Positions 4,731 through 32,795 of a stretch of DNA of 33,375 nucleotides are shown here, one piece after another. Position 1 is the first letter of the stretch. Each line of letters begins with the position of its first letter. The position numbers and the translations under genes were made by a program. The DNA lies in IMG/VR virus record IMGVR_UViG_3300027857_000045, positions 1 through 33,375 of that record. One strand, given 5' to 3'. The DNA is from a virus. The notes below the pieces were generated by a model, which was not told the DNA's origin, ran no database searches, and saw only the letters and a list, made by a program, of their open reading frames with translations.

Positions 4731-4821
4731 AGGCTTGGGTTCGAGCTTGGGCGGCCGTTGAGCTGAGCGCGAGCGCTGCAATCACAGTGCGCCGGGGATG
4801 CTGCCTACTGCCGCTTGCCGC
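4731..4821 (-). repeat. Dispersed junction element, copy 3
   Basis: Tail reads GGCTTGGGTTCGAGCTTG on the plus strand, 8 bp from the ATG of the exported coiled-coil gene. The head ends in CTGCCTACTGCCGCTTGCCG. It is paired head-to-head with copy 4, only about 15 bp apart. Confidence 0.82.
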
Positions 4822-4835
4822 AGCCTTTCTTTCTG

Positions 4836-4935
4836 AAGCCAGTTGCCTTTGACGTTCAGTACGAAGCATCCCCCGGGCAGAGCCACAGCAGCGCTTCCAG
4901 ATCAGCTCCACGGCGCCGGCAGCATGAAAGCCAAC
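4836..4935 (+). repeat. Dispersed junction element, copy 4
   Basis: One of the most complete copies: head GAAGCCAGTTGCCTTT, then CAGTACGAAGCATCCCC, central GAGCCACAGCAGCGCTT, tail GCATGAAAGCCAAC. The tail stops about 6 bp from the stop codon of the C1 protease gene. With copy 3 it forms a 17-bp imperfect stem (4794-4810 with 4857-4873, 15 of 17 positions pairing). Confidence 0.85.
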
Positions 4936-4941
4936 TTCTCG

Positions 4942-5700
4942 TTATTGAATTTCCACCAGCCGGATTGTCCAGAGATCACTTGCCAGGTTTGGATCGGCGA
5001 AATAGGCATAAGGCATCCGGAAGTAGCCCTTCAATCCCCAGCCCGCGCCCCAGGAATTTCTGACGATGTACTGCTTGTTGGCGTCGTCGTATCCCACCAC
5101 GAGAACCGCATGGCCGCCAACCGGCGCCTCGCCCGGCTCCGGCATCGGAACGATACCGTCCTGAGCTACCTGCGCCGTCTCGAAGCCGCCATAAACAGTG
5201 AACCCAACGACAAAGGGATATCCCGCCGCCAGACACGCCTTCATGTGCCCTTCGGTCTGGGTCACGGCGTAATAGCAGCGGACCAGATCTTTCCGTGCGT
5301 CCTTATAGCAGCTGGGCGGCGGCGCGGCGGCGAATTGCGAGATATCGTAGACCCACTCCGTCTCCGGACAAACGCCTTGCGCGAAGACGCTCTTGATGCC
5401 GTCCCGGATCTCGGCGCCGGCGTCTGAGGCGACCGTTCCCTCGATCACCCGCTCGTTGTAATAGATGAACAGCCGCGAGGGGACCGCGACCGCCGTGCTG
5501 TTCTGCTTGCGCTGCTCGAATTCGATTGCGCCGGCGATCGCGTTGGCGGTGCAGGAGCCGAGCGCGCCCTGGTCGTAGACCGGAGGGCAGAGCCCGGTCA
5601 GATCGCATAAGGGGGGAAGGGTGATGTTGGAATGAGGAGAGAAGATCAGGTCTCTCTTATCCAGAGAGTCTTTACGCCAGCCGTATCGTTGAATGTTCAT
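4942..5700 (-). CDS. Papain-family (C1) cysteine protease
   Basis: 252 residues, a full C1A-type peptidase core. The oxyanion-hole Gln and catalytic Cys are in DQGALGSC (Q44, C50), the His is in GGHAV (H197) and the Asn is in NSWG (N215). The spacing is normal and all four residues are present, so it should be active. The short N-terminus, with no long inhibitory prodomain and no signal peptide, argues for cytoplasmic or virion location. It stands alone between two dispersed elements, next to the fibre genes and upstream of the ejection genes. Possible roles are maturation of virion proteins, digestion of host surface protein, or a virion-borne enzyme; none is proven here. Papain-type proteases are uncommon in tailed-phage late operons. 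Confidence 0.92.
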   Translation of the reverse strand: MNIQRYGWRKDSLDKRDLIFSPHSNITLPPLCDLTGLCPPVYDQGALGSCTANAIAGAIEFEQRKQNSTAVAVPSRLFIYYNERVIEGTVASDAGAEIRDGIKSVFAQGVCPETEWVYDISQFAAAPPPSCYKDARKDLVRCYYAVTQTEGHMKACLAAGYPFVVGFTVYGGFETAQVAQDGIVPMPEPGEAPVGGHAVLVVGYDDANKQYIVRNSWGAGWGLKGYFRMPYAYFADPNLASDLWTIRLVEIQ

Positions 5701-5713
5701 AGGATTTTTAGGA

Positions 5714-5806
5714 GTTGGCTTTCATGCTGCCGCTGCCGTTGAGAGATTCCGGGAGCGCTGCTGTGGCTCTGCCCGTGAGATGCTTCGTACAAACGTCAAC
5801 AGGTTC
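5714..5806 (-). repeat. Dispersed junction element, copy 5
   Basis: Tail GTTGGCTTTCATGCTGCC lies about 13 bp from the protease ATG; the intervening leader reads TCCTAAAAATCCT in the sense direction. The head GATGCTTCGTAC overlaps the 3' end of the fibre gene. It is the left arm of a head-to-head pair with copy 6, with two fibre genes between. Confidence 0.85.
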
Positions 5807-7127
5807 CCGTGGTAGAGGTTAAAATTCCGAAGGTGAACACCATGGACCCGGAGCAGGGCAATGTAGAGGTGTGATTCGGCGCATTCGTGCCGTTGATGCG
5901 GAACGTGCCAGTGAAAAAATCGGTGACGCCGGAAACTTGGGATGTAAAACTGGTGCCGATCATCGACAGCGTGCCGTTACTCTGGACCGTAAAGTTATAG
6001 CTACTACCATTGGAATTCAATTGTGTTGAGCATATCCCGCTGATGCAATTGCTGCCAATGACAAACAGTCCTGAGCTGGCCTGCATAAAGTCTTGCGAAT
6101 TTCCCGAGGCGTCCTTGGCAAAGTGTGTATAAGCGTAGAGATTCTTGCCCGCCTGAGCACTGGTCCCGATATCGCTGGTATTGTCGGAGCCAAAGGAGAC
6201 ATCCGCGCCAGAGCCGAGGGCCAGAGCAGACTTCACGGTCGACAGATACGTATACGTGCTCTGCGCCGCATTACTGCTGCTCCCCACGTCGTAGGTATTG
6301 TCCGCGCCGAAGAAGAGATTTGTAGTCGCGGTAAAGGTCGAGCCCCCGTCGAGATTGAGTGCGCCGCCACTCTGTATCTGTAGAATGCCATCGGCGTCTA
6401 GGCCGTGGGCGTAGACGAGGGCAGGCCGGAAGCTCGCCGCCCCGATGTTGCTCACGTTGTCGGTGACGAAAGAGATATCGTTACCAATGCCGCCGGTCAT
6501 GTGCAGCTCCGAAGTCCAGGTCTGCGCCCAGGCGTGGCCCGTGTTGCCAAGGATGTAGGTGTTGGTGAGCGCGGGCTCGACGTTAGTGGAGAAAAGGGCG
6601 ACGCCGCTCGTTAGCGAAAGGGCCGTTACGCTGTTGAATTGCAGGTTGAAGTCCGTTGCGTTCACGCTGCCGGCAATGACGCTGGTAGTGTTTGGATCGT
6701 AGAGAAACTGGCCGCGCAAGGTTCCGTTGAAACCGTCGTAGGCCCAGTAGGCGAATCCGGTGTAAAGGCCTCCCTCTATCACCGTGCCATTCGAGCTCAA
6801 ATAAATGGAACAGCCGTGGCTATCCCAGCCGCCCGCGCCGCTGCCGTCACATAGCGCCAGCGTTCCGTAGCCGACTTGCTGGGCGAGCGCCCATAGGAAA
6901 TCGCCACCGGTCCCGTTCTTCAGACTCACCGCATAGTCGATCCCCAGGCTGAGGTTATTGCCCGTCCCGGTCGACGGCGCGATCACGATGCCGTCCGAAT
7001 TACTCCCCGGCCCGACCACGGTCTTGACGGTGTTACCGGTTTGGATCGACGTTAGCTTGCGAACACCAAGGTCAAGCTGCGCCGCCAGGGGACAAGCGGC
7101 GAGAGCGAGTATAAGTAGGCTGCGCAT
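5796..7127 (-). CDS. Tail-fibre-like protein with N-terminal signal peptide
   Basis: 443 residues. The start is taken as the ATG at 7125-7127, just after the TAA of the upstream gene (7130-7132), because it gives a clean signal peptide (MRSLLILALAACPLAAQ). A longer frame to 7283 would lose it. The mature part has Gly/Thr/Ser-rich beta sequence with at least three copies of a unit like DNTxDIGSSxxxxxxxYxxT (about residues 245-370). This unit is common in trimeric phage fibres and in surface proteins with beta rungs. The C-terminus is TSTTGTC. The repeats argue for receptor binding; the signal peptide is unexpected for a protein assembled in the cytoplasm. Confidence 0.8.
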   Translation of the reverse strand: MRSLLILALAACPLAAQLDLGVRKLTSIQTGNTVKTVVGPGSNSDGIVIAPSTGTGNNLSLGIDYAVSLKNGTGGDFLWALAQQVGYGTLALCDGSGAGGWDSHGCSIYLSSNGTVIEGGLYTGFAYWAYDGFNGTLRGQFLYDPNTTSVIAGSVNATDFNLQFNSVTALSLTSGVALFSTNVEPALTNTYILGNTGHAWAQTWTSELHMTGGIGNDISFVTDNVSNIGAASFRPALVYAHGLDADGILQIQSGGALNLDGGSTFTATTNLFFGADNTYDVGSSSNAAQSTYTYLSTVKSALALGSGADVSFGSDNTSDIGTSAQAGKNLYAYTHFAKDASGNSQDFMQASSGLFVIGSNCISGICSTQLNSNGSSYNFTVQSNGTLSMIGTSFTSQVSGVTDFFTGTFRINGTNAPNHTSTLPCSGSMVFTFGILTSTTGTC

Positions 7128-7726: not shown

Positions 7727-10078
7727 TCAATTTGTCCCGATCTCAATTTCTAAATCCAGATCCACCAAAGCAACTTTGTACTGTCCTACTCCAGACAATC
7801 TTGGGACTGCTCCCCTGGTTGATCCGTTGTTGACCCAGTACACTCGCTGGCTATTCTGTCCTGCCAACCCGATGCTCGCTGTCTCACCATTCACAAAGGT
7901 CTTACCTCTGTCATGCGACCAGTCGAGCGTGATAACAGGCGCGCCTGCTGGCGCGGTGCCGGTTTCCATATCCAGCTCCGCCCGCCCCAAATAGAGCTGC
8001 TTTCCGTCGTTGTAGAGGTAGGGAAGCGCCCGCTGCCACTTGATATCGAGGCCGTTGTCGTCGTAGAAGTTGACGCTCGACTCGTAGAGGATTCCGTCCT
8101 GCATGCCGCCGGTGATGTGTTTCCCGTCGCCTGGCCCGAATTCCGCGACGTAGGCGTGGTAATTGGTCGGGTAGATCGTGTAGGTGGCGCCATTCCAGGC
8201 CGCCCGCGTCCCCCAGCCGCCGGTCGTTGTATCGAAATGCCAGGTCTGCTGGCCGATGGTGAACACCCAGAAGCTGTGTCCTTCTTCGGTGTAGCCGTAG
8301 GAGATGGCGCTCGTCGGCAGGCCCAGGAAGCCGGAGTTGTTCCACTGATACTCTTCGGCGTGCGTCGAGATGCGCTTCGGCGTGAGTCCGTCCAGCACGT
8401 AAGCGGAGATCTGGCCCTCCTGGTTGGTTCCGAGAAAGAAGAGCTGGCCGGCGAGCGCGATCGGACCCCAGGCCGAAAGGCTGCCAAACTTCGCTCCCGC
8501 GCCGTCGATACGCTGGAACGGGAATTGCGCGACGCCCTGCGCGTTCAGACCGCCGCCGGTGTTCTGCCACACTTCGAGCGTCTGATAGCCGAATACGTAC
8601 AATTGCTCGTTGTGGGCCACGACGCAGCGGACATGATCGGGGTAGGACTCCTTAACGCCGACGTCGCTCGATTGCCAGGAACTGCCATTGAGTATGGCCG
8701 ATATCTGGAACTGCGAGGAATTTACCGGGTTGACGATGAAATAGGTGTCGAGATACGTCCCGGTCACAGCGGAAAAGGCGAAGGTCTCGTTAGCGACTCC
8801 GCCGGTCGAGCCAAGGGTTCCGAGAGCGAGGCTGCAGGTGGCGTTGCCGATTTGGTCGACCGACAGGATGGTCACCGATTGCAGCGTGAATCCGACTCCG
8901 GCGACGACCGCGAGAGTCGCGCCCACGTCGTCGGGGCTCTTGAATGGCTGAGCCTGGCTGTTGACCTCCGTAGTCGGGCCCGCCGTGTACTTGGTCGGAC
9001 CATAGGCCGCCGCGGCCGTCGTAAGGGTGAGAAACGTCGGGCTGAGAACGCTGCCGACCGTGAAAGTTCCGATGCCGCCGGCGATGATGATGCTTTGTCC
9101 CTCCATCGAAGCGTTGAATTGCGCGCCGCTCACCCAGAGCACGCCATACGGGAAGAATTTGCTGCCCACTCCGGCGGTTGAACCCAAGGTCCCGAGCGCC
9201 GCGCTGCAGGTGGCGTTGCCATAGGGGTCAACGGCCTCGATCGTCACCGTTTGAACGGTGAATCCCGTGCCGCTGGTCACCGAAAGACTGTCACCAATAT
9301 CGTCGGCGGTGAAGGGCTGCGATGGGCTGTTGACGGTGGTGTTGACTCCCTGTACGTAGGCGACGCCGATATGAATTCCGGCGGTCGCTGTCAGCAATAG
9401 TTCGCCAGGGTTGACCACCACGTCCACGGTAAAGGTCCCGGCGCCAGCGATGACGATGTTCTGGCCGGCCATGCCGTCGTTGAAGGGCGCGCCGGAGGCG
9501 AGCAGCACGAGCAGGCCGTTGGTCGTGACCGTTCCACTGTAGCCGATTGCCAGGTCTGCGTAGGGGACGCTGTTGTTCACCGTTCCGGAGTAGCCGATCG
9601 CCAGATCGGTGTAGGTCGCGCTCGTGAACGAGATCAGCGTGGGCCCGGCGCCGTTGTCGATGTAGGCGAGACCCGCCGAGACGATGAAGAGCTGGTTGCC
9701 GTTCACCAGCATCTGGACCGGGCTATGGCTGGCGTCGTCGGCGATCGTCCGGACCGATCCGATCAGGGTTCCGGTGGAGGAAAGCTCCATGTACTTCGTG
9801 CCCGCCGCGGCGAATAGCCGGCCGCCGCCCGACCAGATCCCGCGGATCGGATGCGCCGCCGCGTCGATGGCCGTCAGATTCGAGAACAGGTGGCGCCCCG
9901 GGCAGCCGTAGAGCGTGCCGAGGTTCTTGCCCACCAGCGGATTTCCGGCGCTTAGGACGTTCCCTTGAGGTGGAATGTTTGGGTCTTGAATTCTCTCTGC
10001 GTAGACATTTATCGATGTTGCAGCGCTTGCTGCTGTTGAACGCGGAGAATAAGTTTGCCCCACCAAGGGAAGTTTCAT
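7727..10078 (-). CDS. Tail hub/needle-connector protein, P22 gp10-like (packaged-DNA stabilisation)
   Basis: 783 residues, well above the roughly 470 of P22 gp10. The N-terminus (PRSTAASAATSINVYAERI, then a CPGRHLF segment) and the C-terminal half (about 470-783, rich in WSHDRGKTF, LYGYQ-like and WNNSGF beta motifs) fit the beta-propeller-like hub family that plugs the portal after DNA packaging. Roughly residues 180-440 are an insertion with two copies of a unit ending VTIxxVDxxGNATCSxALGTLGST. A short tandem YxDLAIGYSGTV repeat lies near 160-185. The gene begins 6 bp from the tail of element copy 7. The leader is only 5 nt with no ribosome-binding site visible. Confidence 0.85.
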   Translation of the reverse strand: MKLPLVGQTYSPRSTAASAATSINVYAERIQDPNIPPQGNVLSAGNPLVGKNLGTLYGCPGRHLFSNLTAIDAAAHPIRGIWSGGGRLFAAAGTKYMELSSTGTLIGSVRTIADDASHSPVQMLVNGNQLFIVSAGLAYIDNGAGPTLISFTSATYTDLAIGYSGTVNNSVPYADLAIGYSGTVTTNGLLVLLASGAPFNDGMAGQNIVIAGAGTFTVDVVVNPGELLLTATAGIHIGVAYVQGVNTTVNSPSQPFTADDIGDSLSVTSGTGFTVQTVTIEAVDPYGNATCSAALGTLGSTAGVGSKFFPYGVLWVSGAQFNASMEGQSIIIAGGIGTFTVGSVLSPTFLTLTTAAAAYGPTKYTAGPTTEVNSQAQPFKSPDDVGATLAVVAGVGFTLQSVTILSVDQIGNATCSLALGTLGSTGGVANETFAFSAVTGTYLDTYFIVNPVNSSQFQISAILNGSSWQSSDVGVKESYPDHVRCVVAHNEQLYVFGYQTLEVWQNTGGGLNAQGVAQFPFQRIDGAGAKFGSLSAWGPIALAGQLFFLGTNQEGQISAYVLDGLTPKRISTHAEEYQWNNSGFLGLPTSAISYGYTEEGHSFWVFTIGQQTWHFDTTTGGWGTRAAWNGATYTIYPTNYHAYVAEFGPGDGKHITGGMQDGILYESSVNFYDDNGLDIKWQRALPYLYNDGKQLYLGRAELDMETGTAPAGAPVITLDWSHDRGKTFVNGETASIGLAGQNSQRVYWVNNGSTRGAVPRLSGVGQYKVALVDLDLEIEIGTN

Positions 10079-10084
10079 GAGGAG

Positions 10085-10165
10085 TTGGGTTCAAGCTCAG
10101 TGGCAGGTTGAGATAGCTGAGAGCGCGGTGATCGTTGGCGTCGGTCTATGCTGAGTACAGGAAAC
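10085..10165 (-). repeat. Dispersed junction element, copy 7
   Basis: Tail GTTGGGTTCAAGCTCAGTG lies 6 bp from the hub-gene ATG; the head CTATGCTGAGTACAGG points right. The head end supplies the AGGA ahead of the plus-strand gene at 10171. It is the left arm of a head-to-head pair with copy 8. Confidence 0.78.
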
Positions 10166-10170
10166 CGACA

Positions 10171-10479
10171 ATGACAATGGACGAGCTGGTTGCGCTACAC
10201 AAAGATCCCGCCAGCGAGCGGATGGCCGTCCTCGCGTATCGCTTCCAGGGATATAACGCCAAGCCTGGCTCGCGAGTCGATCTTTGTTGCGAGGTCTGCG
10301 GCCATCGCCTTTCCCTGGCCGATGAAAGCGTGCGGGCCCACCAACAGTTAGGCTGGCTGCTGATCTGCCGCGAGTGCGGCGCCGAGGTCGCGCGGAGAAG
10401 CGCGAAGCCCCTCGACGCGAGCAAGCTGATGAGCAGGGAACAGGTTATCGAGCGGCTACGCAAACCGTCGACGCCGTGA
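10171..10479 (+). CDS. Small zinc-ribbon protein, plus strand
   Basis: 102 residues. ATG at 10171 is preceded by ACAGGAAA at a suitable distance, which decides the start; an alternative ATG lies at 10177. Two CxxC pairs (C40/C43 in CEVCG and C66/C69 in CRECG), 22 residues apart, make a zinc ribbon. A helical N-terminus and a basic C-terminus surround it. It runs against the surrounding minus-strand genes and overlaps the 3' end of the next minus-strand gene by 35 bp. It lies inside the head-to-head element pair 7/8 and so has the look of an accessory gene. Function unknown; nucleic-acid binding is possible. Confidence 0.75.
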   Translation: MTMDELVALHKDPASERMAVLAYRFQGYNAKPGSRVDLCCEVCGHRLSLADESVRAHQQLGWLLICRECGAEVARRSAKPLDASKLMSREQVIERLRKPSTP

Positions 10480-10993
10480 GCCCGCCCACAAATCCAATTG
10501 TATCCGCATTCGATCCCAGCGTGACAGAAGACGGGAACACCTGAAATCCGCCGGCGTCGACGCATTGAACGACATGCGTGATCGAGCTGAAGTTGTGCGT
10601 CAGCGTTCCGGTCGTCGCCGCCGCGGAGAACGTCGCCGCCACCGGTCCTATCGAGATAGCCGAGGTCGACGTCGTCAGGCCCTTGCCGTTCACGGTGACC
10701 TGGCAGACGTGCGTCACGTCTCCGCAGGTTCCCGGCCCGGAGTTGACGGTTGCGAGCGTCGCGGCCGTCGAGCCGGGCCCGGTACCGGTCACGTCGCCGG
10801 TAAGCGCCGTGATGCCGGCGAGGCCGCTAACGGTAGCGGGATGCCACGCCAGGGGCGAGCCGGAGAGCACCGGGACCTGGCTCGCCGAGCCGCCCGAGGG
10901 GGAGATCTCTCTCAGATCGATACGGGTATGAGGCGCGGGCTGGGCGGAGAGAAAGAAGGCGCCGATGATGAATAATAGCAGAAACGTCCGCAT
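10445..10993 (-). CDS. Fibre-type protein with signal peptide
   Basis: 182 residues. A Sec signal peptide (MRTFLLLFIIGAFFLSAQ) is followed by a segment typical of phage tail fibres: ITALTGDVTGTGPGSTAAT, then ATVNSGPGT, then VTVNGKGLTTS. In fibres this unit usually repeats before the receptor-binding tip; here it occurs once and is followed by a beta-rich end with paired cysteines (about 107 and 115, plus later ones). The exported N-terminus combined with a fibre motif is unusual. It shares the cargo space between elements 7 and 8 with the zinc-ribbon gene. Confidence 0.72.
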   Translation of the reverse strand: MRTFLLLFIIGAFFLSAQPAPHTRIDLREISPSGGSASQVPVLSGSPLAWHPATVSGLAGITALTGDVTGTGPGSTAATLATVNSGPGTCGDVTHVCQVTVNGKGLTTSTSAISIGPVAATFSAAATTGTLTHNFSSITHVVQCVDAGGFQVFPSSVTLGSNADTIGFVGGLTASTVCVAAR

Positions 10994-11207
10994 TGGAAAT
11001 TTATATTGTTCTGAGGCGTTTTGAGGCGTTCTGGGGGTTTAATCCGCCGCTACGAAACGAATTGAATCGCCGCTACGAAACCCCTTGTAGGCGTGGATTG
11101 ACGCCTCGTTTCTGTGTTAAGCAGCCGCCCGGAGCCTTTCGGCTCCTAAATCACCTTGCGGCGAAGGGCGGCACAGTCAATTCTGCTCCCCTCAACACTC
11201 TAGGGTG
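10994..11207 (-). promoter_or_regulatory. Non-coding leader with direct repeats and hairpins upstream of the 10445-10993 gene
   Basis: No convincing gene lies here. A 14-bp direct repeat CGCCGCTACGAAAC occurs at 11045-11058 and 11068-11081 (23-bp period), and TGAGGCGTT-like units lie at about 11010-11030. Two short hairpins are visible: AGGCGT/ACGCCT (11089-11106) and GGAGCC-TTTC-GGCTCC (11131-11146). Neither is followed by a clear T tract, so they are not convincing terminators. The place, just 5' of an isolated fibre gene, suits an operator or leader. Function is inferred. Confidence 0.4.
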
Positions 11208-11302
11208 GGGCCTTTCGGGACCCTGTACCTAGCATCTCACGCCGTCCACGTCCACCGCGCTTCACAAAAGTACGGAGCGCAGCCAAAGACGTGAAAGCCA
11301 AA
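11208..11302 (+). repeat. Dispersed junction element, copy 8
   Basis: Head GGGGCCTTTCGGGACCC then TGTACCTAGCATC, a diverged centre, and tail GACGTGAAAGCCAAAG about 4 bp from the stop of the gp4-like gene. Confidence 0.78.
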
Positions 11303-11306
11303 GCCT

Positions 11307-12278
11307 CTAACTGCTTGATCCAGTTGCAAGCAACGTCCAGCCCGCTAAAGGAATATTTGGAGCTAAGAACGTCACAATCGATCCTACAAGCGTGTAATCG
11401 ATCCCGGGAGCGTTCAGCAGCCCATTGACGTAGACCTGGAGGGAATTCGGCGTTGCGTTGAGTGTGAAGGTAGCGTTGCCATCGCTTCCATTGGTGCCGT
11501 TGATCGCGCCGGTCATCGTGAAGTAAGTCATGGTCGTGGAGCCTCCGCCCATCACCAGGCCCTCGCCATAGCCGCCGGAGTGCCCCTGGTACGCAGCTTC
11601 CGACCTTAGATCGGGGATCCGGACATTGAGGATCATGAGCGCCTGCAGCGCGCTCCGCGCTTCCTGTACCGCCAGCGGCCCGAGATGGGCGTCGAGCGGA
11701 TAAAGCGAGCCGGCCCGTAACGCCAGGTTGGTGACGATGGCGTCCTCGTAGCCGTCGGGCAGGATCACGGCGTCGGTAACGGCTGTGAAGGTGGCCTTCA
11801 GGCCCTGCCAGGTGTACAGCTCCAACTGGTAGCCGGCCGGCGGCTGGCCGCGCAGGTAGATCTGGCCGTAACCGTTCGAGTCATACCCGTGATCGTAATA
11901 GAGCAGGTAGGGGGGCGCGCCGGGGATATCCTGGACGCCGATGCGCGACCACTCCTCGTCGTCGATCATGCGGATGTGGCGCCGGACCAGCGGATTGGTC
12001 GGGAAGATGAAATCGGCGTTGCGAATATTCACCGGCCGCGGTCCGTCGAGGTTCGCGCCTGGCCCGATGGTGTAGATCTTCTGATTGGAGATCAGCGGAT
12101 AGGCGGTGATGGCAGTCTGAAATATCTTGTGTCCGTCGCAGTTCCAGCCGGAGAGCATGCGGTTGCACTCTGGGATCAGCTCTCCATACTGGTCTATGGA
12201 GGGTGTTGTGCCTGGTAGGGTTGTTATTCCTGCACGACGTAGAGCGGGTTTTAATAAATCTGCAAGAGTTGTAGACAC
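11307..12278 (-). CDS. gp4-like head-tail connector with C-terminal add-on domain
   Basis: 323 residues, GTG start at 12276-12278. The N-terminal 215 residues have the pattern of P22 gp4-type tail accessory factors: helical start (LADLLKPALRRAGI), an LSGWNCDG segment, LPDGYEDAIVTNLALR and EARSALQAL helices. These proteins bind beneath the portal and close the capsid after packaging. From about residue 245 a separate module begins (TFTLNATPNSLQVYVNGLL, then DYTLVGSIVTFL), a small beta domain found in many phage fibres and connectors. It could dock a fibre. It is paired with a second gp4-like gene at 12772-13494. It is flanked by elements 8 and 9, tails inward. Confidence 0.75.
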   Translation of the reverse strand: MSTTLADLLKPALRRAGITTLPGTTPSIDQYGELIPECNRMLSGWNCDGHKIFQTAITAYPLISNQKIYTIGPGANLDGPRPVNIRNADFIFPTNPLVRRHIRMIDDEEWSRIGVQDIPGAPPYLLYYDHGYDSNGYGQIYLRGQPPAGYQLELYTWQGLKATFTAVTDAVILPDGYEDAIVTNLALRAGSLYPLDAHLGPLAVQEARSALQALMILNVRIPDLRSEAAYQGHSGGYGEGLVMGGGSTTMTYFTMTGAINGTNGSDGNATFTLNATPNSLQVYVNGLLNAPGIDYTLVGSIVTFLAPNIPLAGWTLLATGSSS

Positions 12279-12293
12279 TGGAAGGAGTTTTAG

Positions 12294-12389
12294 GGCTTGG
12301 GTTCAAGCTCGGTGGCAGGCTGAGCTCAAGCGCGAGCGCGGTGATTTCAGTGCGCTGGTTCGTGCTGGTTACTGGGGCCGCGCTGCCCC
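12294..12389 (-). repeat. Dispersed junction element, copy 9
   Basis: Tail GGCTTGGGTTCAAGCTCGG lies about 15 bp from the GTG of the gp4-like gene, with leader CCCTAAAACTCCTTCC. The head GGTTACTGGGGCCGCGC overlaps the last codons of the 12347-12568 gene. Confidence 0.8.
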
Positions 12390-13494: not shown

Positions 13495-13507
13495 GGAATT
13501 TTAGGGG

Positions 13508-13600
13508 ATTGGGTTCGAGCGTGGTGGCCGTTGAGCGCAAGCGCAAGCACTGCTGTGGCTCTCGACCGCTTCGTGCTTCGTACTGGGGCCGAAAGGCCGA
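13508..13600 (-). repeat. Dispersed junction element, copy 10
   Basis: Tail GGATTGGGTTCGAGCGTGG; head CTTCGTACTGGGGCCGAAAG reaching within 4 bp of the stop codon at 13604. It points the same way as copies 9 and 11. Confidence 0.82.
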
Positions 13601-13603
13601 GTG

Positions 13604-14137
13604 TTACTCCTTGCGCGGCTTCGCCTTCAACGGCGGAACGATGGGAGAGCCGGCGACTACGCCGTCAGAGCCTGGAGCCGGTCGATACGCCTCGGGGATC
13701 GGGGTGTGAGCGACAGCAGCCTCGGGCGCTGTACCGGCCGCGCTGTCGGCGCCCTGTGCCACACTGGACACCTGCGGACCAATGGCTGCGGCTTCAAGAG
13801 CGTTAAACCGAGCTTGTAATAGACGGTGCTCCTGATTGAGCTTGGCCCACGCTGTTTCAAACGTCTCGCTCATCGCGGCGCAGTTTGGGCATTGTCCCGG
13901 TTGTTCCATCGGGCCGGGAACTTCAAACTCCGGATCGAGCGGTGGTACTGAAGTGTGGACGACGTAGGTCACGCCCGGGGTTGGCTTGTCCATCCAGCCC
14001 TTGAGACGCATGGAGCTGTACTCTTCCGAGCTGTGTACCACTCTCCAGGTGTGGTTGCCGTCGTGATAGAGAGAGATGGGATAGACTTTGCCCGGTTGAA
14101 GGTGCATTCTTCCGTCTTGATGAAGTTGAGGAGTCAT
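13604..14137 (-). CDS. Hypothetical phage protein with coiled coil
   Basis: 177 residues. Residues about 12-60 (HLQPGKVYPISLYHDGNHTW, a VVHSSEEYSSMRLKGW segment) follow a pattern seen in small phage proteins in which the sequence KMLYH...VxxxxEE...GW recurs. A CPNC pair (about residues 83-86) is followed by a heptad-rich helix (ETAWAKLNQEHRLLQARFNALEA) and a Pro/Ala-rich tail. I do not know the function; a structural or assembly role is possible from position between connectors and lysis genes. The leader between element 11 and the ATG reads CCTAAAACACTTT, without a ribosome-binding site. Confidence 0.6.
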   Translation of the reverse strand: MTPQLHQDGRMHLQPGKVYPISLYHDGNHTWRVVHSSEEYSSMRLKGWMDKPTPGVTYVVHTSVPPLDPEFEVPGPMEQPGQCPNCAAMSETFETAWAKLNQEHRLLQARFNALEAAAIGPQVSSVAQGADSAAGTAPEAAVAHTPIPEAYRPAPGSDGVVAGSPIVPPLKAKPRKE

Positions 14138-14149
14138 AAAGTGTTTTAG

Positions 14150-14252
14150 GTTGGTTCACGTTTGGCGGCAGGTCGAGCGATTCGAAAGCCCTGTTCCTGC
14201 TCGCGTCGGTCTATGCTGGGTACTGGGGCCGAACTGCAACTGGCTCCAGGGG
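14150..14252 (-). repeat. Dispersed junction element, copy 11
   Basis: Tail GGTTGGTTCACGTTTGG; head GGTACTGGGGCCGAACTGC continuing to CAACTGGCTCCAGG. The head end supplies the purine-rich AGGGGA ahead of the Acb2-like gene. It is the left arm of a head-to-head pair with copy 12. Confidence 0.82.
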
Positions 14253-14261
14253 AAAATCGGA

Positions 14262-14510
14262 ATGGATTTCACGCGCGCGAGCGAAGTCACTCCGGAAGTG
14301 GAAGCTGAAATTGATCGGTGCTTCGAGTATCAGAAATGGGACGACGGCAAGATCGGCAAAGGGAGCGCCGTTCGGAATGCGCTCGCCGCCGCCGTCAAAC
14401 AGATTGTCGCCAACGTGCCGCCCTGCCCCGACCGCTCGGCCGCGATCCGCAAACTTCGCGAGGCGCGGATGGATTGCAACTCGGCGATTACCTTCGACGG
14501 AAAGTACTGA
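14262..14510 (+). CDS. Acb2-like cyclic-oligonucleotide sponge (candidate anti-CBASS protein)
   Basis: 82 residues. ATG at 14262 follows AGGGGA at a good distance; upstream in-frame codons lie in the repeat and are rejected. The protein fits the small helical family that includes phage Acb2 and T4 Vs.4: F21 and Y23 in an F-x-Y motif, R38, an IVANVPP turn (P53, P54), R58, A61-I62, L65, A68, M70, N73 and the closing A75-I76. Known members form hexamers that bind cyclic di- and trinucleotide signals and so silence CBASS or related immunity. That function is inferred from pattern matching, not from a search. Plus strand, inside element pair 11/12, coupled to the next gene by a TGATG overlap. Confidence 0.72.
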   Translation: MDFTRASEVTPEVEAEIDRCFEYQKWDDGKIGKGSAVRNALAAAVKQIVANVPPCPDRSAAIRKLREARMDCNSAITFDGKY

Positions 14511-14842
14511 TGAACCGCCGCTCGTTCCTCGCCGCGCCCGCCGCCGGCCTCGTGCTGGACTCGGATCGCCTACTTTGGCGGCCCGGAGCGAAGCTCATCT
14601 CGATACCGAAGCCCGCGCCGCTGATTATCAGGGGTTGGGCGCTCGGGCCACTGCTCGCGATCGGAGATGAAATAACGTTCGGCTCAGATCCGACGCGGTA
14701 CAACATCACTGGCGTCTTCGAGTCCGATTCCGAGGCAGGCTTCACCATCGAAATGCTGCGCAAAGACGCCGAAGTCCTCCGCGAACGGCTCCGCTTGAGT
14801 AGACAGCATCCCCGCCGCCATCTCTCACCGCGCTTGGCTTGA
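14510..14842 (+). CDS. Hypothetical protein with twin-Arg-like leader, 3' end inside a repeat
   Basis: 110 residues. The ATG overlaps the TGA of the Acb2-like gene (TGATG), indicating translational coupling. The N-terminus MNRRSFLAAPAAGLVL resembles a twin-arginine signal, though the hydrophobic stretch is short. The middle (residues 40-85: a PLLAIGDEITFGSDPTRYNITGVF segment and a short helix) looks like a small beta domain. The last 15 or so residues are encoded by element copy 12, so the original C-terminus was probably lost. Function unknown; it may act with the Acb2-like protein or simply share its cassette. Confidence 0.6.
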   Translation: MNRRSFLAAPAAGLVLDSDRLLWRPGAKLISIPKPAPLIIRGWALGPLLAIGDEITFGSDPTRYNITGVFESDSEAGFTIEMLRKDAEVLRERLRLSRQHPRRHLSPRLA

Positions 14843-14877
14843 GCACGGCGCGGCCGTCAAAGACGTGAAAGCCAAAT
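14797..14877 (+). repeat. Dispersed junction element, copy 12
   Basis: Head is shortened to GTAGACAGCATCCCC; the centre CACCGCGCTTGGCTTGAGC matches copy 8; the tail GACGTGAAAGCCAAATCC ends 2 bp from the stop of the endolysin gene. Confidence 0.78.
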
Positions 14878-14879
14878 CC

Positions 14880-15353
14880 TTAGACGTGGTAATTTTCATC
14901 GGGATACCATAATCCCGAGAACAGCCTATCCTGATCTGCCAGCGTAATTCGTTGGACATGATCGGCGTCGACGAAGGAGTGCTTCACTTCGGGTTGACCC
15001 CAGTCGTAGCCGGAAATCAGGCCGTGCTTGACGGCCAGGTCCCGCAGAAACTTCCAGTCCCCGCCCCAATACGGCTCGCCGGCGACGTCCTTCGCGAAGT
15101 CGCACGCCAGGCCGTAGTGGTGGACGCCGACCTTTGATAGCCGCGTCGCGCCTTGTTTGAACAGCAGCCACTGCCGGGCCTCGGAGCGGTACGTCTCGAA
15201 GATCATCAACGGCTGGCCCATGGCGCCTGCGTCCGCCACAATCGCGAGCGCCGCCTGGCGGGTGAACGGATCGAGCAGCGCGGGATCGGCCACGCGCACG
15301 ACGGCGTTGAAGCGCGGATGGGGCTCGATGACGTCGGTGAAGAAGTTGGACAC
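14880..15353 (-). CDS. Endolysin, M15-type peptidase
   Basis: 157 residues, GTG start at 15351-15353. It has the metal-site layout of M15 (VanY/L-Ala-D-Glu endopeptidase) enzymes: YRSEARQ (about 55-61), H78-x2-G-x-A-x-D85 in HHYGLACD, the conserved WGGDWKFLRDLA segment (97-107) and H132 in DADHVQ. The predicted action is cleavage of the peptide part of peptidoglycan at the end of infection. No signal peptide or membrane segment is seen, so a holin elsewhere would be needed. It begins 3 bp after the stop of the upstream gene and closes a four-gene coupled cluster (16104 to 14880). The stop is 2 bp from element 12. Confidence 0.88.
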   Translation of the reverse strand: MSNFFTDVIEPHPRFNAVVRVADPALLDPFTRQAALAIVADAGAMGQPLMIFETYRSEARQWLLFKQGATRLSKVGVHHYGLACDFAKDVAGEPYWGGDWKFLRDLAVKHGLISGYDWGQPEVKHSFVDADHVQRITLADQDRLFSGLWYPDENYHV

Positions 15354-15356
15354 CGG

Positions 15357-15590
15357 TTATACCGCCGGACTCAGCCGCATAGTCAGATCGCCGTTTGCGT
15401 CGAGGCCGCTGTCCAGGACGGTGAATCGCGTGCGCAGGCTGAGGCGGGACTCCTTCCACTGCTGGGCGACATTCGCAACCGGATTAAACAGGTTCGCCGC
15501 CGTCCCGAGCCGCGGAGGTTTGTGGCCGGCCTTCAGGACGCGCGCCGCGAGCGGAGCGAATAGCGTGGCGAAAAAGGCGCGGCGGTTCAT
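15357..15590 (-). CDS. Small protein with twin-Arg-like leader
   Basis: 77 residues. The first 17 (MNRRAFFATLFAPLAAR) are identical to those of the preceding gene at 15587-15946. The leader resembles a twin-arginine signal or a single N-terminal membrane segment. The rest (about 25-77) has GTAANLFNPVANVAQQWKES followed by a beta-rich RTRFTVLDSGLDANGDLTM. The ATG overlaps the upstream stop (ATGA). It lies directly upstream of the endolysin, a usual place for holin or spanin genes, but one weak hydrophobic helix does not allow a firm call. Confidence 0.65.
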   Translation of the reverse strand: MNRRAFFATLFAPLAARVLKAGHKPPRLGTAANLFNPVANVAQQWKESRLSLRTRFTVLDSGLDANGDLTMRLSPAV

Positions 15591-15946
15591 GCTTCTAGTT
15601 CCGCGAGTCTCGCTCGATACCGCTCCAGGCTGACATAATCGCGAAACATGGCGTTAAGCTCCGGATTCCAGTCGGCGGATATCAGGCGTACCGGATCCGG
15701 GATATGGTTAGGGAAAACCGCGTAGAGGCCTCTCCCGGCGAATACGAACACTCGGCCGTATTTCTCGAACACGTCGTGGATCGGAGCCTCGCCGAGCGAC
15801 TGATCGAAGGTCCCCATCGCCCCCTTGAGGCTATCGACCGCCTGCGCCAAGCCTTGCGTCAGCGCCCGAATCGGAGGCGGAGTCAACAGCAGAGCGCGCG
15901 CCGCGAGCGGAGCGAACAGCGTGGCGAAAAAGGCGCGGCGGTTCAT
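15587..15946 (-). CDS. Chimeric small protein: twin-Arg-like leader + portal fragment + unique tail
   Basis: 119 residues. Residues 1-17 equal the leader of the next gene. Residues 25-54 match portal residues 411-440 at 22 of 30 positions (pattern PIxALTQGLAQAxDxxKxAM), and the DNA at 15785-15874 matches 20707-20796 as well. Residues 55-119 (VFEKYGRVFVFAGRGL, then NPELNAMFRDYV and a helix ending LAELEA) resemble nothing else here. ATGA overlaps couple it both up- and downstream, and the reading frame is intact, so it may be expressed. It could be a recombination accident or a working fusion that mimics a portal helix. Confidence 0.7.
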   Translation of the reverse strand: MNRRAFFATLFAPLAARALLLTPPPIRALTQGLAQAVDSLKGAMGTFDQSLGEAPIHDVFEKYGRVFVFAGRGLYAVFPNHIPDPVRLISADWNPELNAMFRDYVSLERYRARLAELEA

Positions 15947-16116: not shown

Positions 16117-16216
16117 GCAGCCAGTTGCCGTTTAAGTACGAAGCACAGCGCCGCAGCCTGCCACAGCAGCGCTTCACCCAGTCCTCGACGGAGCAAGAGC
16201 GCGCCGCCAATTCCTA
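16117..16216 (+). repeat. Dispersed junction element, copy 13
   Basis: Head GCAGCCAGTTGCCGTTTAAG then GTACGAAGCA, centre CCACAGCAGCGCTTC, and a diverged tail GCGCCGCCAATTCCTAAAAA. This is the only copy with a terminator between its tail and the gene end (16301). Confidence 0.78.
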
Positions 16217-16272
16217 AAAACTCCCCTGGAGTGATCTCAATTCAAAAGGAAGAGAAAGAATCACTCCAAGGG
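16214..16272 (-). terminator. Probable intrinsic terminator after the exported-protein gene
   Basis: On the minus strand, CCCTTGGAGTGAT (16272-16260) pairs with ATCACTCCAGGGG (16235-16223): 13 bp with one G-U pair. The loop is about 24 nt and the stem is followed by GTTTTT. It lies 29 bp after the stop at 16301 and would separate the capsid unit from the lysis unit. The long loop lowers certainty. Confidence 0.6.
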
Positions 16273-17065: not shown

Positions 17066-18316
17066 TTAGCCCTGAATCACGCAAGCCATCTCGCGGTACA
17101 TCGACGCGAAGTCGTACAGAACGTCGATGCGGTTGATTTCGACCGAGTTGAACGAGTCGAACGCGCGGATGAGCCGCAGGCTGATGCCGGTGTCGGGATC
17201 GGTTACCTGGGCGACTACCGCGCCCAAGCCGGGCTCCGGAGCCGACATCGGGACGCTGACGAAGGCGAAGGCCGACTTGTGCATCAGGAGCCCTTGCTGG
17301 GCTGCTACGCCGGTCGCGCCGACGAGCGTGATGATGGCCGTGTCGACCGGAGAGCTGTCGACGTTCTGATACTGGCCGGAGGGCGTAATCGCCGGGCTGA
17401 CCAGCATGTTGATCGTGCCGCTCGAGTCGCTGATGGTCGCGAGAACGGTGAACTGCTGCTGATACCCGGTCGCCTTGCGGGTGCGGGGATGAACGGACTG
17501 TACGCCGCCCACGGTGGCGCTCGAGGCCGAGCCGATCACGAACTTGTCACCCTGGTTGAGAGTGGTCGTGGTCCAGCCTTGGGTGTTCAACGTCATGGTG
17601 CCGTTGTTGCCGCCCTCGGCCGCCTGGCCGCCAAGATGAACGATGGGCGAGCCGGCGTAGGTTCCGACGGTGTGCAGGTTGATGGTCTGGTCTTTGTAGA
17701 CTTTGTAGCCCAAAGAATCGACCATTTCGCCCTGCTTCCACTGCGTCGAGATAGAACCAACCGGATTGAACAAGGTCTTCGTTCCGTGAACGAAGGCGCT
17801 CGACATTTTGCGGTTGATGATGAGGTTCAGATCCTCGCCCTGCGGCAGTCCCTGCGCGACGATCAGATCGCCGGCCGAGAGATAGGTGAGGTCGTCGGTG
17901 GGGGCCGCTCCCGGCGTACCGACCGAATTGAAGGTGTTGTCCGCGCAGAACGTGGCCGCTTCCGCGTTGATCAGTGAAGCCAGGTCCATGGCCGCGGGCC
18001 GCGAATAGAGCTCGCGTGCTTCGCGCAGGTCGAGGGTCTTCTCGACCGAGTCCCAGTCGTAGCTCACTTGAGCGACCTGGGAGACCTGAACCGGCATGAC
18101 GGTGTCGACCAAAGGCTGGGGCTGATACTTCAGGCCCTTCGATGGCACGAACCGGTAGGGGCGGCGCACCTGTACGATGGCGCCGACCTTGTTGTTCTTT
18201 TTTGCAAATTCCGGAGTTACAGCGTGCGACATGTTTTTGCAAACATTCAGCTCGCCGCCCAGGTCCATGAGCACGAGGCTCGCGAAGACCTTGGGAGTTA
18301 AGATTAAATTGTCCAT
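17066..18316 (-). CDS. Major coat protein, P22 gp5-like
   Basis: 416 residues, close to the 430 of P22 coat. The N-terminus (MDNLILTPKVFASLVLMDL) is followed by an N-arm, then the HK97-fold E-loop region with VRRPYRFVPSKG. A central insertion-type beta domain (about 220-330, HLGGQAAEGGNNG to VHPRTRK) fits the P22 telokin-like I-domain position. The C-terminus VLYDFASMYREMACVIQG matches the conserved end of this family. Gene order scaffold-coat and size support the call. Product: the building block of the icosahedral head, assembled with the scaffold encoded just upstream. A 133-bp junction with element 14 separates it from the scaffold gene. Confidence 0.92.
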   Translation of the reverse strand: MDNLILTPKVFASLVLMDLGGELNVCKNMSHAVTPEFAKKNNKVGAIVQVRRPYRFVPSKGLKYQPQPLVDTVMPVQVSQVAQVSYDWDSVEKTLDLREARELYSRPAAMDLASLINAEAATFCADNTFNSVGTPGAAPTDDLTYLSAGDLIVAQGLPQGEDLNLIINRKMSSAFVHGTKTLFNPVGSISTQWKQGEMVDSLGYKVYKDQTINLHTVGTYAGSPIVHLGGQAAEGGNNGTMTLNTQGWTTTTLNQGDKFVIGSASSATVGGVQSVHPRTRKATGYQQQFTVLATISDSSGTINMLVSPAITPSGQYQNVDSSPVDTAIITLVGATGVAAQQGLLMHKSAFAFVSVPMSAPEPGLGAVVAQVTDPDTGISLRLIRAFDSFNSVEINRIDVLYDFASMYREMACVIQG

Positions 18317-18367
18317 TTGTCCGCCGTGATTCTTGGGGTTGAACTGCGGGGACCAGCTTCAGTAGAA

Positions 18368-18450
18368 TTTGGCTTTCATGCTGCCGGCGCCACGGAGGTA
18401 ATCCGGGAGCGCGGCTTCTGATCTGCCCTGGGGATGCTTCCTACTGTTTT
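18368..18450 (-). repeat. Dispersed junction element, copy 14
   Basis: Tail TTTGGCTTTCATGCTGCC lies about 51 bp from the coat ATG; head GGGGATGCTTCCTACTG reaches the stop of the scaffold gene. Same direction as copies 15 and 16. Confidence 0.8.
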
Positions 18451-19577: not shown

Positions 19578-19629
19578 AACGTTTTTAAGTCCGGCGCGTA
19601 TTAGATCCCCACGCCTGGGGAGCAAAACT

Positions 19630-19725
19630 AGAGCTTGGGTTCGAGCTTAGGCGGCTGTTGAGCTACTCGCTAACGCTGGTGTTGCTCTGCGCGGAGTCTT
19701 GCTTCGTACTGGGGCCCCGCTAGGC
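19630..19725 (-). repeat. Dispersed junction element, copy 15
   Basis: Tail GCTTGGGTTCGAGCTTAGG, centre GAGCTACTCGC, head TTGCTTCGTACTGGGGCCCC. The portal stop codon (19720-19722) lies inside the head. Confidence 0.82.
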
Positions 19726-22026
19726 GGCCTTTGGCTTCGGCTGATTCTGCTGAGCTTGTTCCTGCTGTTGCTGCGCCGCATCGCGATCTTGCTGGCCCTG
19801 ATCGGCTTGATGTTGCTGCTGAGAATCTTGCAAAGCGGCTTCGTGCCCTTGCGCCGAATCCTGCTGCCCGGCGTCGTGCGCCTGGTCCGCTCCTTGCATC
19901 GCTTGCTCGTGGGATTGCTGCCCCGCAGCCAGATCGGCTTGATGGCTCCGCTGCCTCTCGGCGTTGATGTTGTCTATCTCCGATTCCAGCCTTTTGATAT
20001 CGGCCTGAATACCGAGCTTCGCCAGCGTTGCGGCAGAATCGGCTTGCAATTCTTCGCGCTTGAAGTCGATATCCATTTGCTTCAGGAGAATCGCGTTGTG
20101 GAGCTCCGGCTGCTTGGTCTGCAATTGCTCGTGGAGGGATTGCGCGAAGGCCTGTGTTGTCGCGAGTTTTTGCTGAAGCTGCTGTATACCGGCTTGAACC
20201 TGCGGAGGTAGCGGTTGCCCTTGTCCCTGATTCTCCTCGATCAATCCCGGCGACTTCATCTGGATGGCCTTCTTCATGCGCTCGGCCCGCTCTTCGCTGC
20301 CTGCCGTGTCGTCCGACGCGAATAGCTGGTCGCCAATCACCCAGAGCAGCTCCGGATCGGCCTGAATGAGAGCGGAATCGCGGTCGTTCATCTCCTGGCG
20401 CGCGCTCGCGTGCGTCGGCCCAACCATCACGATAATGCCGTAGTCGCCGTCGGTGAGGTTGTGGATGATCGGCTCGCCGCTCTTTGGATCGGCGTAGGGC
20501 TTCCCTATCGGCACGACGGTCGTCTTACCGGCCTCGTCCCGGATCGGAACGCTCATGCCGGCGCGGTCGATCTTCTGGATCAGCTCAATGAGGATTTGCC
20601 CTTCGCGCTTGCGCGACCGGGCTTCGTTGTCGGCAAAGTGGAAATTGGTGATCGACGAGACTTTTTGAAGCCGCTGAATGGCAATGCCGCTCTTTTCAGC
20701 GCTGCGCGCCTGGCCGAGCGAAGGGTCAAAAATGCCCATCGCGGCCTTGATGCCGTCAATTGCCTGCGCCAGACCCTGCGTCAGCGCTTCAATCGGCGCC
20801 TCGTGCGTGACGCGCTGCGGAGCGCCCAGGTCGCGCCCGGCGTCGTCGAAGCGAACATAGGGAAGATAGCTCTTGGGCCACGCCGATACGTTCTCCCAGG
20901 CTTCTAGGAACGCCGCCGGAATCTGGCCCATCGCCACCAGGTAGGGCGTCTTCGGCATCATGGCGATCTGCTCGGCGATGTTCGAGACGAAGTGATTCAC
21001 CGAGCGCTGGGGGTCCTTGGCGTTTCTGATGAGCGAAACCGTCTGCCGGCGGCCGTCGACCGTGCAGGTGCGGCCCCACACCGGAACGATGGGAATGCTC
21101 GATCCGATCCATTCGCTCTCGTCGAGAATCTCGGCGCCATTGATGACGTAGGGGCAGATGGTGACGTCCTGCTCCTGGCGCGTTCTGACAATGAATTTTC
21201 TGTCGAAGCCCCTCTCGTCGAGCTCGTCTTCCCACACCGGGATGGGCATTTCGCCGGGCGCGCCGGTTCCGACCTCGGCCAGCGTGCGGTCTTTGTACTC
21301 TTTGCGCCAATACTGCGCGATCTGGATCAGCTCGCCGCGGTCGCCAAGCCCGATCCAGCCCGGCGCGGTGGCTGCAGCGTCGGTGAAATCGACACGACTG
21401 ACGATCGAATCCTTGCCGTAGCGCCGCTCGTGGGCGTCCTTTGAGATGCGCTCGACGACAAAGCACCAGTCGGCGTCGGAGCGGTCGTACTCCTGGCTCG
21501 ACGGATCCCAAACGACGGAGAACTGATTCTCGATGGCCTCGATCCGGATGCGCTGGCGGAACGTGCCTTGCACGAATTCGGTCGAGTAGCGGATGAAGCC
21601 CCGGCCGGAGGTAACCTGCTGGTCGCGGGCCGTATCGCGGGCGGTGTCGGCGTTCGAGTCGTACTCGATGAACCGGATTCTGCTTTGGAAGAATTCAGCG
21701 GTCTTTGGCTCGCCACCATCGCCGGCCGCTACTTTGATAGCCGGGCGGTTCTGCCGGCCTTCGTTGGCGATCTGGGCCACGTAGGTCGGGATGCGGTTCC
21801 ACTGCATCACCGGGCGATGGGCGGAGATACGGGCTTTCAGGGCCTTTTCGTCCCACTGCTCTTTTTCCTTGTCGCTGGCGTTGGCGAAGGCGTTATCGGC
21901 TTGAGCCGCTTCCCTGTCTATCTTGTCTACTTCGAGACCAAAGTCGTATCTTTCACGAGCTTCTCTAAGGAATTCCTGGACCTTGTCAGGGGATATTCGG
22001 CTTGTGGTGGAATTGTACTTGGCCAT
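19720..22026 (-). CDS. Portal protein, P22 gp1-like
   Basis: 768 residues, near the 725 of P22 portal. N-terminal half: MQWNRIPTYVAQIANEGRQN and RPAIKVAAGDGG (about 75-105), then a GRGFIRYSTEF segment and VWDPSSQEYDRSDADWCFV (about 170-190), all typical of the P22-like portal family. The middle holds stem and clip regions, including residues 411-440, a copy of which occurs in the small gene at 15587. The C-terminal third is Gln/Glu-rich helical repeat, fitting the long barrel seen in P22. The product forms the twelve-part ring through which DNA enters and leaves. The ATG is 13 bp from the tail of element 16, with leader TTCTAAAGCCTCCG. Confidence 0.95.
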   Translation of the reverse strand: MAKYNSTTSRISPDKVQEFLREARERYDFGLEVDKIDREAAQADNAFANASDKEKEQWDEKALKARISAHRPVMQWNRIPTYVAQIANEGRQNRPAIKVAAGDGGEPKTAEFFQSRIRFIEYDSNADTARDTARDQQVTSGRGFIRYSTEFVQGTFRQRIRIEAIENQFSVVWDPSSQEYDRSDADWCFVVERISKDAHERRYGKDSIVSRVDFTDAAATAPGWIGLGDRGELIQIAQYWRKEYKDRTLAEVGTGAPGEMPIPVWEDELDERGFDRKFIVRTRQEQDVTICPYVINGAEILDESEWIGSSIPIVPVWGRTCTVDGRRQTVSLIRNAKDPQRSVNHFVSNIAEQIAMMPKTPYLVAMGQIPAAFLEAWENVSAWPKSYLPYVRFDDAGRDLGAPQRVTHEAPIEALTQGLAQAIDGIKAAMGIFDPSLGQARSAEKSGIAIQRLQKVSSITNFHFADNEARSRKREGQILIELIQKIDRAGMSVPIRDEAGKTTVVPIGKPYADPKSGEPIIHNLTDGDYGIIVMVGPTHASARQEMNDRDSALIQADPELLWVIGDQLFASDDTAGSEERAERMKKAIQMKSPGLIEENQGQGQPLPPQVQAGIQQLQQKLATTQAFAQSLHEQLQTKQPELHNAILLKQMDIDFKREELQADSAATLAKLGIQADIKRLESEIDNINAERQRSHQADLAAGQQSHEQAMQGADQAHDAGQQDSAQGHEAALQDSQQQHQADQGQQDRDAAQQQQEQAQQNQPKPKAA

Positions 22027-22039
22027 CGGAGGCTTTAGA

Positions 22040-22136
22040 AGTTGGCTTTTATACTGCCGCCGTGTGGCGCTGGGATTGGAGAGCGCGGTGGGCGCTGGCG
22101 TCCTGAGATGCTGGCTGCAAAGGGCCGGAACTGGCT
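22040..22136 (-). repeat. Dispersed junction element, copy 16
   Basis: Tail GTTGGCTTTTATACTGCC lies 13 bp from the portal ATG; the head GAGATGCTGGCTGCAAAGG continues to CCGGAACTGGCT. It is the left arm of a head-to-head pair with copy 17. Confidence 0.8.
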
Positions 22137-22762: not shown

Positions 22763-22854
22763 CTTTCGGCCCCAGTAGCCAGCATCTCCGGAGCACCACC
22801 GCAGCAGCGCTCTCAGATCAGCTCCACGACGCCGGCAGAATGAAAGCCAGACTC
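22761..22854 (+). repeat. Dispersed junction element, copy 17
   Basis: Head GACTTTCGGCCCCAGTAGCC then AGCATCTCCGG, central GCAGCAGCGCTCTCAGATC, tail GCAGAATGAAAGCCAGAC. The tail faces the ATG of a plus-strand gene (22874), so the tail-toward-gene rule also holds on the other strand. Confidence 0.85.
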
Positions 22855-22873
22855 TTGTTATATATTTGGAGTC

Positions 22874-24340: not shown

Positions 24341-24386
24341 GATAGGTAATTCTCCTGATGGAATTGGTGATTCTGGTGCGGGACTT

Positions 24387-24500
24387 CTTAGGGCTTGGGT
24401 TCGAGCTCAGGCGGCCGTTGAGCTACTCGCGAGCGCTGCTGTTGCTCTGCGCAGGCTCGTGCTTCGTACTGGGGCCGAAAGGCCACTGGTTGCGAGAGAG
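24387..24500 (-). repeat. Dispersed junction element, copy 19
   Basis: One of the fullest copies: tail GGCTTGGGTTCGAGCTCAGG, centre GAGCTACTCGCGAGCGCTGC, head GCTTCGTACTGGGGCCGAAA then CACTGGTTGCGAGAGAG ending 4 bp from a stop codon. It is the left arm of a head-to-head pair with copy 20. Confidence 0.85.
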
Positions 24501-24503
24501 AAC

Positions 24504-24866
24504 TTACTGGACGTCGGGGACTAACTTCTGCTCGCGGGCGTGTTTCAATTGCGCGTCGCAGCAGCCCGTTATCCAGTCGCTCGCCGTTCCGGAGCCGCCC
24601 TGCTTCTCCGCTTCGCAGAGGGGACAGTATTCTGCTCCTTCAGGGTTATCGCCCATCAGATACAGGCCGCCGGCTTCGAGGGCTGCGCTTGTGATTGCCC
24701 AATGAGCCGACATCAGTGGATCGTAATCGCCGGGCTCGCTCATGCCCTTCAGTTCGCGCTCCATTGCCGCCGCCGCCTTGATGCCGTCTCCGGCGACGAG
24801 TCCGGACAGTCCGCGATCATCGATCGCCTTTCTTAACTCATCCCAATGGGGTTGACAGAATTTCAT
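24504..24866 (-). CDS. Small conserved phage protein with zinc-binding residues
   Basis: 120 residues from the ATG at 24864-24866, which overlaps the 3' end of the sigma gene by 29 bp. The protein opens MKFCQPHWDELRKAIDDRGL, with C4 and H7 and then C81/C84 in CPLCEAEK, a likely zinc site. It has the DPLMSAHWAI motif (about 49-58) and ends in LKHAREQKLVPDVQ. I recognise this pattern from small proteins in many podoviruses and related prophages, with no assigned function. Cotranscribed with the ECF sigma factor inside element pair 19/20. Confidence 0.75.
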   Translation of the reverse strand: MKFCQPHWDELRKAIDDRGLSGLVAGDGIKAAAAMERELKGMSEPGDYDPLMSAHWAITSAALEAGGLYLMGDNPEGAEYCPLCEAEKQGGSGTASDWITGCCDAQLKHAREQKLVPDVQ

Positions 24867-31267: not shown

Positions 31268-31299
31268 TTTATGAAATTAGTTCCTTTGGAGAGATTTTG

Positions 31300-31410
31300 A
31301 GGAGTTGGGTTCGCGCGTGGCGGCTGTTCGGCTACTCGCGAGCGCTGCTGTTGCTCTGCGCGGCTTCGTGCTTCGTACAAGGGCCTAACTGCAACTGGTT
31401 GCGGGAGAAA
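31300..31410 (-). repeat. Dispersed junction element, copy 21
   Basis: Tail GTTGGGTTCGCGCGTGG; centre GCTACTCGCGAGCGCTGCTG; head CTTCGTACAAGGGCC then CAACTGGTTGCGGGAG. It is the left arm of a head-to-head pair with copy 22. Confidence 0.85.
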
Positions 31411-32782: not shown

Positions 32783-32795
32783 CTTGGAAGTTTTA

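Follow-up and report, generated by a model that had tools for sequence, protein, structure and literature searches.

Phages use the Acb2/Vs.4 proteins to mop up bacterial alarm molecules. Cyclic oligonucleotide signals are bound at the interfaces between the protomers of the Acb2 oligomer, and the binding makes use of a Tyr in the N-terminal segment together with a basic residue of the first long helix. The signal-making domain of CBASS is a nucleotidyltransferase of the SMODS type (CD-NTase). In Vs.4 (Acb2) of phage T4 (PDB 7uq2, PHROG 717), cGAMP is contacted by Y8, H11, K23, R79 and F82, the residues L29, A66, A73 and A77 lie at the hexamer interface, T12 serves as a helix cap, and S74 is found near the ligand (Jenson et al., PMC10097602). 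Acb2 also has a trinucleotide pocket apart from the dinucleotide pocket, and Tad1 starts with an N-terminal antiparallel beta-sheet that is followed by two helices (PMC12043709).

We describe here a putative sponge gene of this kind in a viral record of 33,375 bases; the whole of this stretch is called the window. The gene is on the plus strand, and the head and tail genes are on the minus strand (Table 1). The position and the strand of the 82-residue reading frame in the original prediction proved exact, and every residue of the family pattern quoted there is present in the translated product: F21-E-Y23, I48-V-A-N-V-P53-P54, R58 and A61-I62-x-x-L65-x-E67-A68-x-M70-x-x-N73-x-A75-I76. The frame is a real gene under purifying selection, with a median dN/dS of 0.21 and all pairs below 0.42 (Nei-Gojobori, 155 usable pairs from 27 full-length relatives). 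Scanning IMG/VR gave at first 25 and then 64 viral loci with relatives, the latter number being a lower bound since parts of the search used strict peptide patterns; four further relatives came from contigs of bacterial genomes, in three cases MAGs of Bryobacteraceae or Solibacteraceae. Given the 64 loci, the dN/dS value, and the 17 invariant columns in an alignment of 24 relatives, the family pattern is not a product of chance.

Table 1. Features of the window discussed in the text
Feature	Position	Strand	Remarks
Head-closure gene	7727-10078	-	
Intergenic region separating two divergently read genes, 13604-14137 (minus strand) and the sponge gene	14138-14261		Repeat copy at 14150-14233, minus orientation
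Acb2/Vs.4-like putative immune-signal sponge gene	14262-14510	+	82 aa
Tyr23 codon	14328-14330	+	Aligned with Vs.4 Tyr8, which stacks on a cGAMP base (PMC10097602)
Arg38 codon	14373-14375	+	Aligned with Vs.4 Lys23, hydrogen bond/salt bridge to cGAMP (PMC10097602)
Segment coding for the family signature PPCPDRSAAIRKLREARMDCNSAITFDGKY	14418-14507	+	Second hairpin helix and C-terminal tail
110-aa ORF	14510-14842	+	Start overlaps the sponge stop codon (TGATG)
Endolysin-like gene (VanY/M15-like)	14880-15353	-	PHROG lysis families, E 4e-6
Major head protein gene	17066-18316	-	
Portal gene	19720-22026	-	
Dispersed element copies	2746-2838, 4732-4945, 5702-5793, 10075-10165, 12286-12380		
Dispersed element copies	13496-13593, 14150-14233, 16130-16223, 18358-18446, 19623-19717		
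Dispersed element copies	22033-22125, 22765-22861, 24382-24479, 31293-31388, 32787-32879		Weaker copies besides

Likeness to known sponges and family membership

Like Vs.4, the window protein combines a short N-terminal segment with a long helical hairpin, places a Tyr and a basic residue 15 positions apart (Tyr23 and Arg38, matching Tyr8 and Lys23), and has small residues at the mapped positions of the hexamer core. The two proteins are nevertheless only about 20% identical, the long inter-helix loop of Vs.4 is absent from the shorter window protein, and the latter belongs to PHROG 1454 rather than to PHROG 717. The Acb2 of Pseudomonas phages (p26; PDB 8h2j/8h2x) has the same protomer layout, at 14% identity in a structural alignment. 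Its Tyr11 and Lys26, which we take to be the tested pocket residues, have the same spacing as Tyr23 and Arg38. The best sequence-profile match of the window family in the PDB is the 76-residue “Acb2 homolog 43” (PDB 9ptq), on which our literature search found no paper; its C-terminal residues differ, FFATKAAAS against MDCNSAITF in the window protein. The phage proteins of PHROG 1454, and those named “Acb2/Tad1 hairpin domain-containing” in UniProt, carry HPP and xxxMTANAAIA where the window clade has HPW and REARMDxNSAITHGGKY.

The sole Pfam match of the window protein is PF24729 (Acb2_Tad1_hairpin), at E 0.003 and 18.2 bits, which is under the gathering cut-off of 27 bits; membership is therefore argued through intermediates. 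Four of these (L084, L087, L094 and L102) align with the window protein as one family and score 38-60 bits, the known members T4 Vs.4 and Pseudomonas Acb2 reaching 71 and 66 bits; L102 is ORF101 of the Tunturiibacter phage Tunturi_1, whose host is an acidobacterium. All 24 relatives tested match PF24729 (best E 4e-5), with any other family matched by at most four of them, and all 24 match PHROG 1454, the window protein itself at E 3e-8. When a profile of 40 relatives was compared with all PDB sequences, 9ptq came first with an E-value of 0.0013, the next entry being at 1.1; phmmer with the single sequence found nothing related in the PDB. Aligned by hhalign with the Vs.4/Acb2 alignment, the family scored 27.9, compared with a maximum of 18.0 among 120 column-shuffled controls and 9.5 for the reversed alignment. 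At the DNA level, the sponge region showed no similarity to phage records. A PADLOC match to a type I specificity subunit (E 0.027) was discarded as noise, and the GABARAP and GTP cyclohydrolase rows obtained with a narrow profile disappeared with a broader one.

The AlphaFold2 model (pLDDT 95.1) has helices at residues 11-21, 28-51 and 56-77, that is, one short helix and a long two-helix hairpin, in agreement with the layout of the Acb2 protomer (PMC12043709, PMC10419184). In a Foldseek search of the PDB the first row was Vs.4 with cGAMP (7uq2; probability 0.84, with a weak E-value of 1.6), and the Acb2 entries 8h2x and 8h2j appeared at ranks 13 and 28. Among the viral models of BFVD, 14 of the first 15 rows were named Acb2/Tad1 hairpin with a probability of 1.00, and one was unnamed. 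The VIA-align Z of 7.1 for 7uq2 was equalled by unrelated helical hairpins, with cytochrome bo3 and others ranked above Vs.4; values of 6-8 are uninformative for hairpins, since generic ones score as high.

Judged from sequence and model together, the window protein very likely belongs to the Acb2/Tad1-hairpin superfamily as a divergent member, a placement we consider well supported; its clade adds a new and unannotated branch to a protein family already known. The Acb2-type assignment of the original prediction, which was to be checked by a profile search, thus stands as regards family and fold, where profile, intermediates, profile-profile comparison and model agree; it needs the correction that the single sequence misses the Pfam cut-off and that membership runs through the intermediates.

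Pocket residues and the proposed function

On balance we consider it rather likely that the product is a divergent Acb2-type sponge of a mobile, anti-CBASS type, for which we infer an oligomer, a ligand and an anti-CBASS function. During infection, the small helical-hairpin protein would probably form an Acb2-like oligomer. A signal held by this sponge would leave the cell-killing effector of the host CBASS, or of another CD-NTase/cyclic-nucleotide pathway, switched off.

The residues of Vs.4 were mapped by alignment onto 32 sequences of the core clade. Position 23 is Tyr in 29 of the 32, and position 38, where Lys is changed to Arg, is Arg in 31. The helix cap T12 corresponds to D27, mostly Asp or Thr in the clade. 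Of the hexamer residues, A66 corresponds to A61 (Ala in all 32), A73 to A68 (Ala in 30) and A77 to C72 (always a small residue, Ala or Cys), while L29 is replaced by Ala. The contact H11 has become Trp in every sequence and S74 has become Arg in all but one (31/32); R79 and F82 are not kept either, their places being taken by S74 and T77 in the clade of the window protein. Since R79 and F82 are absent in more distant relatives too, they are possibly a trait of the Vs.4 branch. The mapping thus shows half of the known dinucleotide pocket, and much of the core of the oligomer, to be conserved, the other half of the pocket being rebuilt in an invariant, clade-specific way. With R79, F82 and H11 replaced, binding of cGAMP in the manner of Vs.4 is not assured for the window protein, and this mapping is our main reason for naming no particular ligand.

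The alternative closest to the sponge reading keeps the superfamily and shifts the ligand: the protein might sequester a signal other than 3'3'-cGAMP, such as a cyclic trinucleotide or a gcADPR-like or other molecule, in a pocket made of the clade-specific W26, R69, S74, H/F78 and GKY tail. The exchange of Vs.4 H11, S74, R79 and F82 for invariant clade-specific residues points this way, as do the presence of two copies on some contigs and the separate trinucleotide pocket in Acb2 itself (PMC12043709). Against it stands the Tyr/basic pair, which the dinucleotide pocket has retained, and we can offer the shifted ligand only as a tentative possibility. The replaced pocket residues provide a natural comparison for asking which residues of Acb2 set the choice of ligand.

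Neighbourhood and spread of the gene

As the original prediction had it, the sponge gene adjoins lysis and connector genes: the endolysin-like gene lies downstream, and head-closure and adaptor-like genes span 7727-12278. Its placing of the gene inside an element pair is loose, with a copy of a dispersed intergenic repeat on one side (Table 1) and a fragment of a second repeated sequence (14826-14880) on the other; the dispersed repeat is not specific to the sponge gene, since about 19 copies are present in the window. The 110-aa ORF that follows is likely co-transcribed with the sponge gene. It has no family match, and the near-identical contig L028 is the only relative in which it adjoins the sponge gene. 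A search among the relatives for a conserved downstream partner found none, the apparent frame matches being overlaps with the sponge gene itself.

The gene downstream of the relatives varies from contig to contig, and further homologues of window proteins within 6 kb are limited to some dozen of the 64 loci. With neighbours mostly unrelated across loci, the sponge gene behaves as a small mobile cargo gene, and it has spread, as a cassette of one gene, through phages that otherwise differ. This variation also bears on the idea that the product is a hairpin-fold phage protein with no signalling role, such as a structural or regulatory accessory. Helical hairpins are common, a Z this high is found for many unrelated chains, and in some relatives (L081, L084) the gene is directly beside structural or packaging genes; yet the links to Acb2 go beyond the fold to the sequence profile, and a structural protein would be tied to one module, so that we regard such a role as quite unlikely. 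A fragment of a Tad1-type (Thoeris anti-defence 1) sponge, suggested by the fact that PF24729 spans the hairpins of both Acb2 and Tad1, is very improbable, as the N-terminal antiparallel beta-sheet of Tad1 (PMC12043709) is absent from the window protein, whose AlphaFold2 model has no beta strands and a short helix instead.

A second, different Acb2-like gene is present on some of the phage contigs. L061 and L064 lie on one 45.6-kb contig, and in L008/L042 the two genes are at 5001-5246 and 5569-6156 (L008 numbering). Two such genes on one contig could serve two different signals.

Hosts, and other features of the phage

The MAG with the relative L092 belongs to a family in which relatives of the window phage's portal were found in 8 of 237 genomes (best 46% identity, E 2e-173) and sponge relatives in five of the 237; one contig (C35 of genome G001) has both together. 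The occurrence of the two in these genomes, and on one contig, makes Bryobacteraceae/Solibacteraceae the likely hosts, and the host of this soil phage is probably an acidobacterium. Of 150 genomes of the same family, 22 have SMODS nucleotidyltransferase matches that exceed the cut-off, about six of these matches being short partial domains, and one genome (G096) combines a SMODS-type domain with relatives of both the portal and the sponge. This distribution fits a counter-CBASS role and is no proof of it.

If the protein is a sponge, soil Acidobacteria, which are abundant and poorly studied, would be the scene of an active arms race between cyclic-nucleotide immunity and its neutralisation. 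A testable function would be gained for a group of phage genes that is easily missed, because its scores lie near database cut-offs or below them. A more far-reaching version would have an Acidobacteria-phage branch of Acb2, its pocket re-built around the clade-specific residues listed above, sequester a signal that Acb2 is not known to counter, against the CBASS-like immunity of Bryobacteraceae/Solibacteraceae; we think this unlikely as a whole.

The dispersed intergenic element is about 95 nt long, with the cores GTACGAAGCAT, GCAGAGCCACAGCAGCGCT, GGCAGCATGAAAGCCAA and TCCTAAAA. Most copies sit immediately ahead of a start codon, oriented with the gene that begins there. No Rfam match was found in the window, this element included, and outside the window the element was seen only in L028 and, by exact pattern, in one other contig of the same metagenome. 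It is possibly a phage-specific promoter or leader. The phage also encodes an ECF-like sigma factor (24838-25338, minus strand; Sigma70_r2 and r4_2 both above the Pfam cut-off), which is a candidate for reading the repeated upstream elements.

Repetition is seen in coding regions as well. The minus-strand gene 25809-27389 has about ten 20-residue repeats in the C-terminal half of its product (60-nt units, 60-76% alike in DNA), and the N-terminus has a weak minor-tail match. Near-identical MNRR(A/S)F(F/L)A(T/A) starts occur in the 110-aa ORF and in the neighbouring minus-strand ORFs 15357-15590 and 15587-15946, the latter two sharing a stretch of 59 nt (95% identity); it looks as though a gene's 5' end had been copied. 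Finally, the minus-strand ORF 4942-5700 resembles, by eye, a papain-type (C1) cysteine protease (GSCTANAIAGAIE, GGHAVLVVGYDD and RNSWGAGWG), an unusual cargo for a phage.
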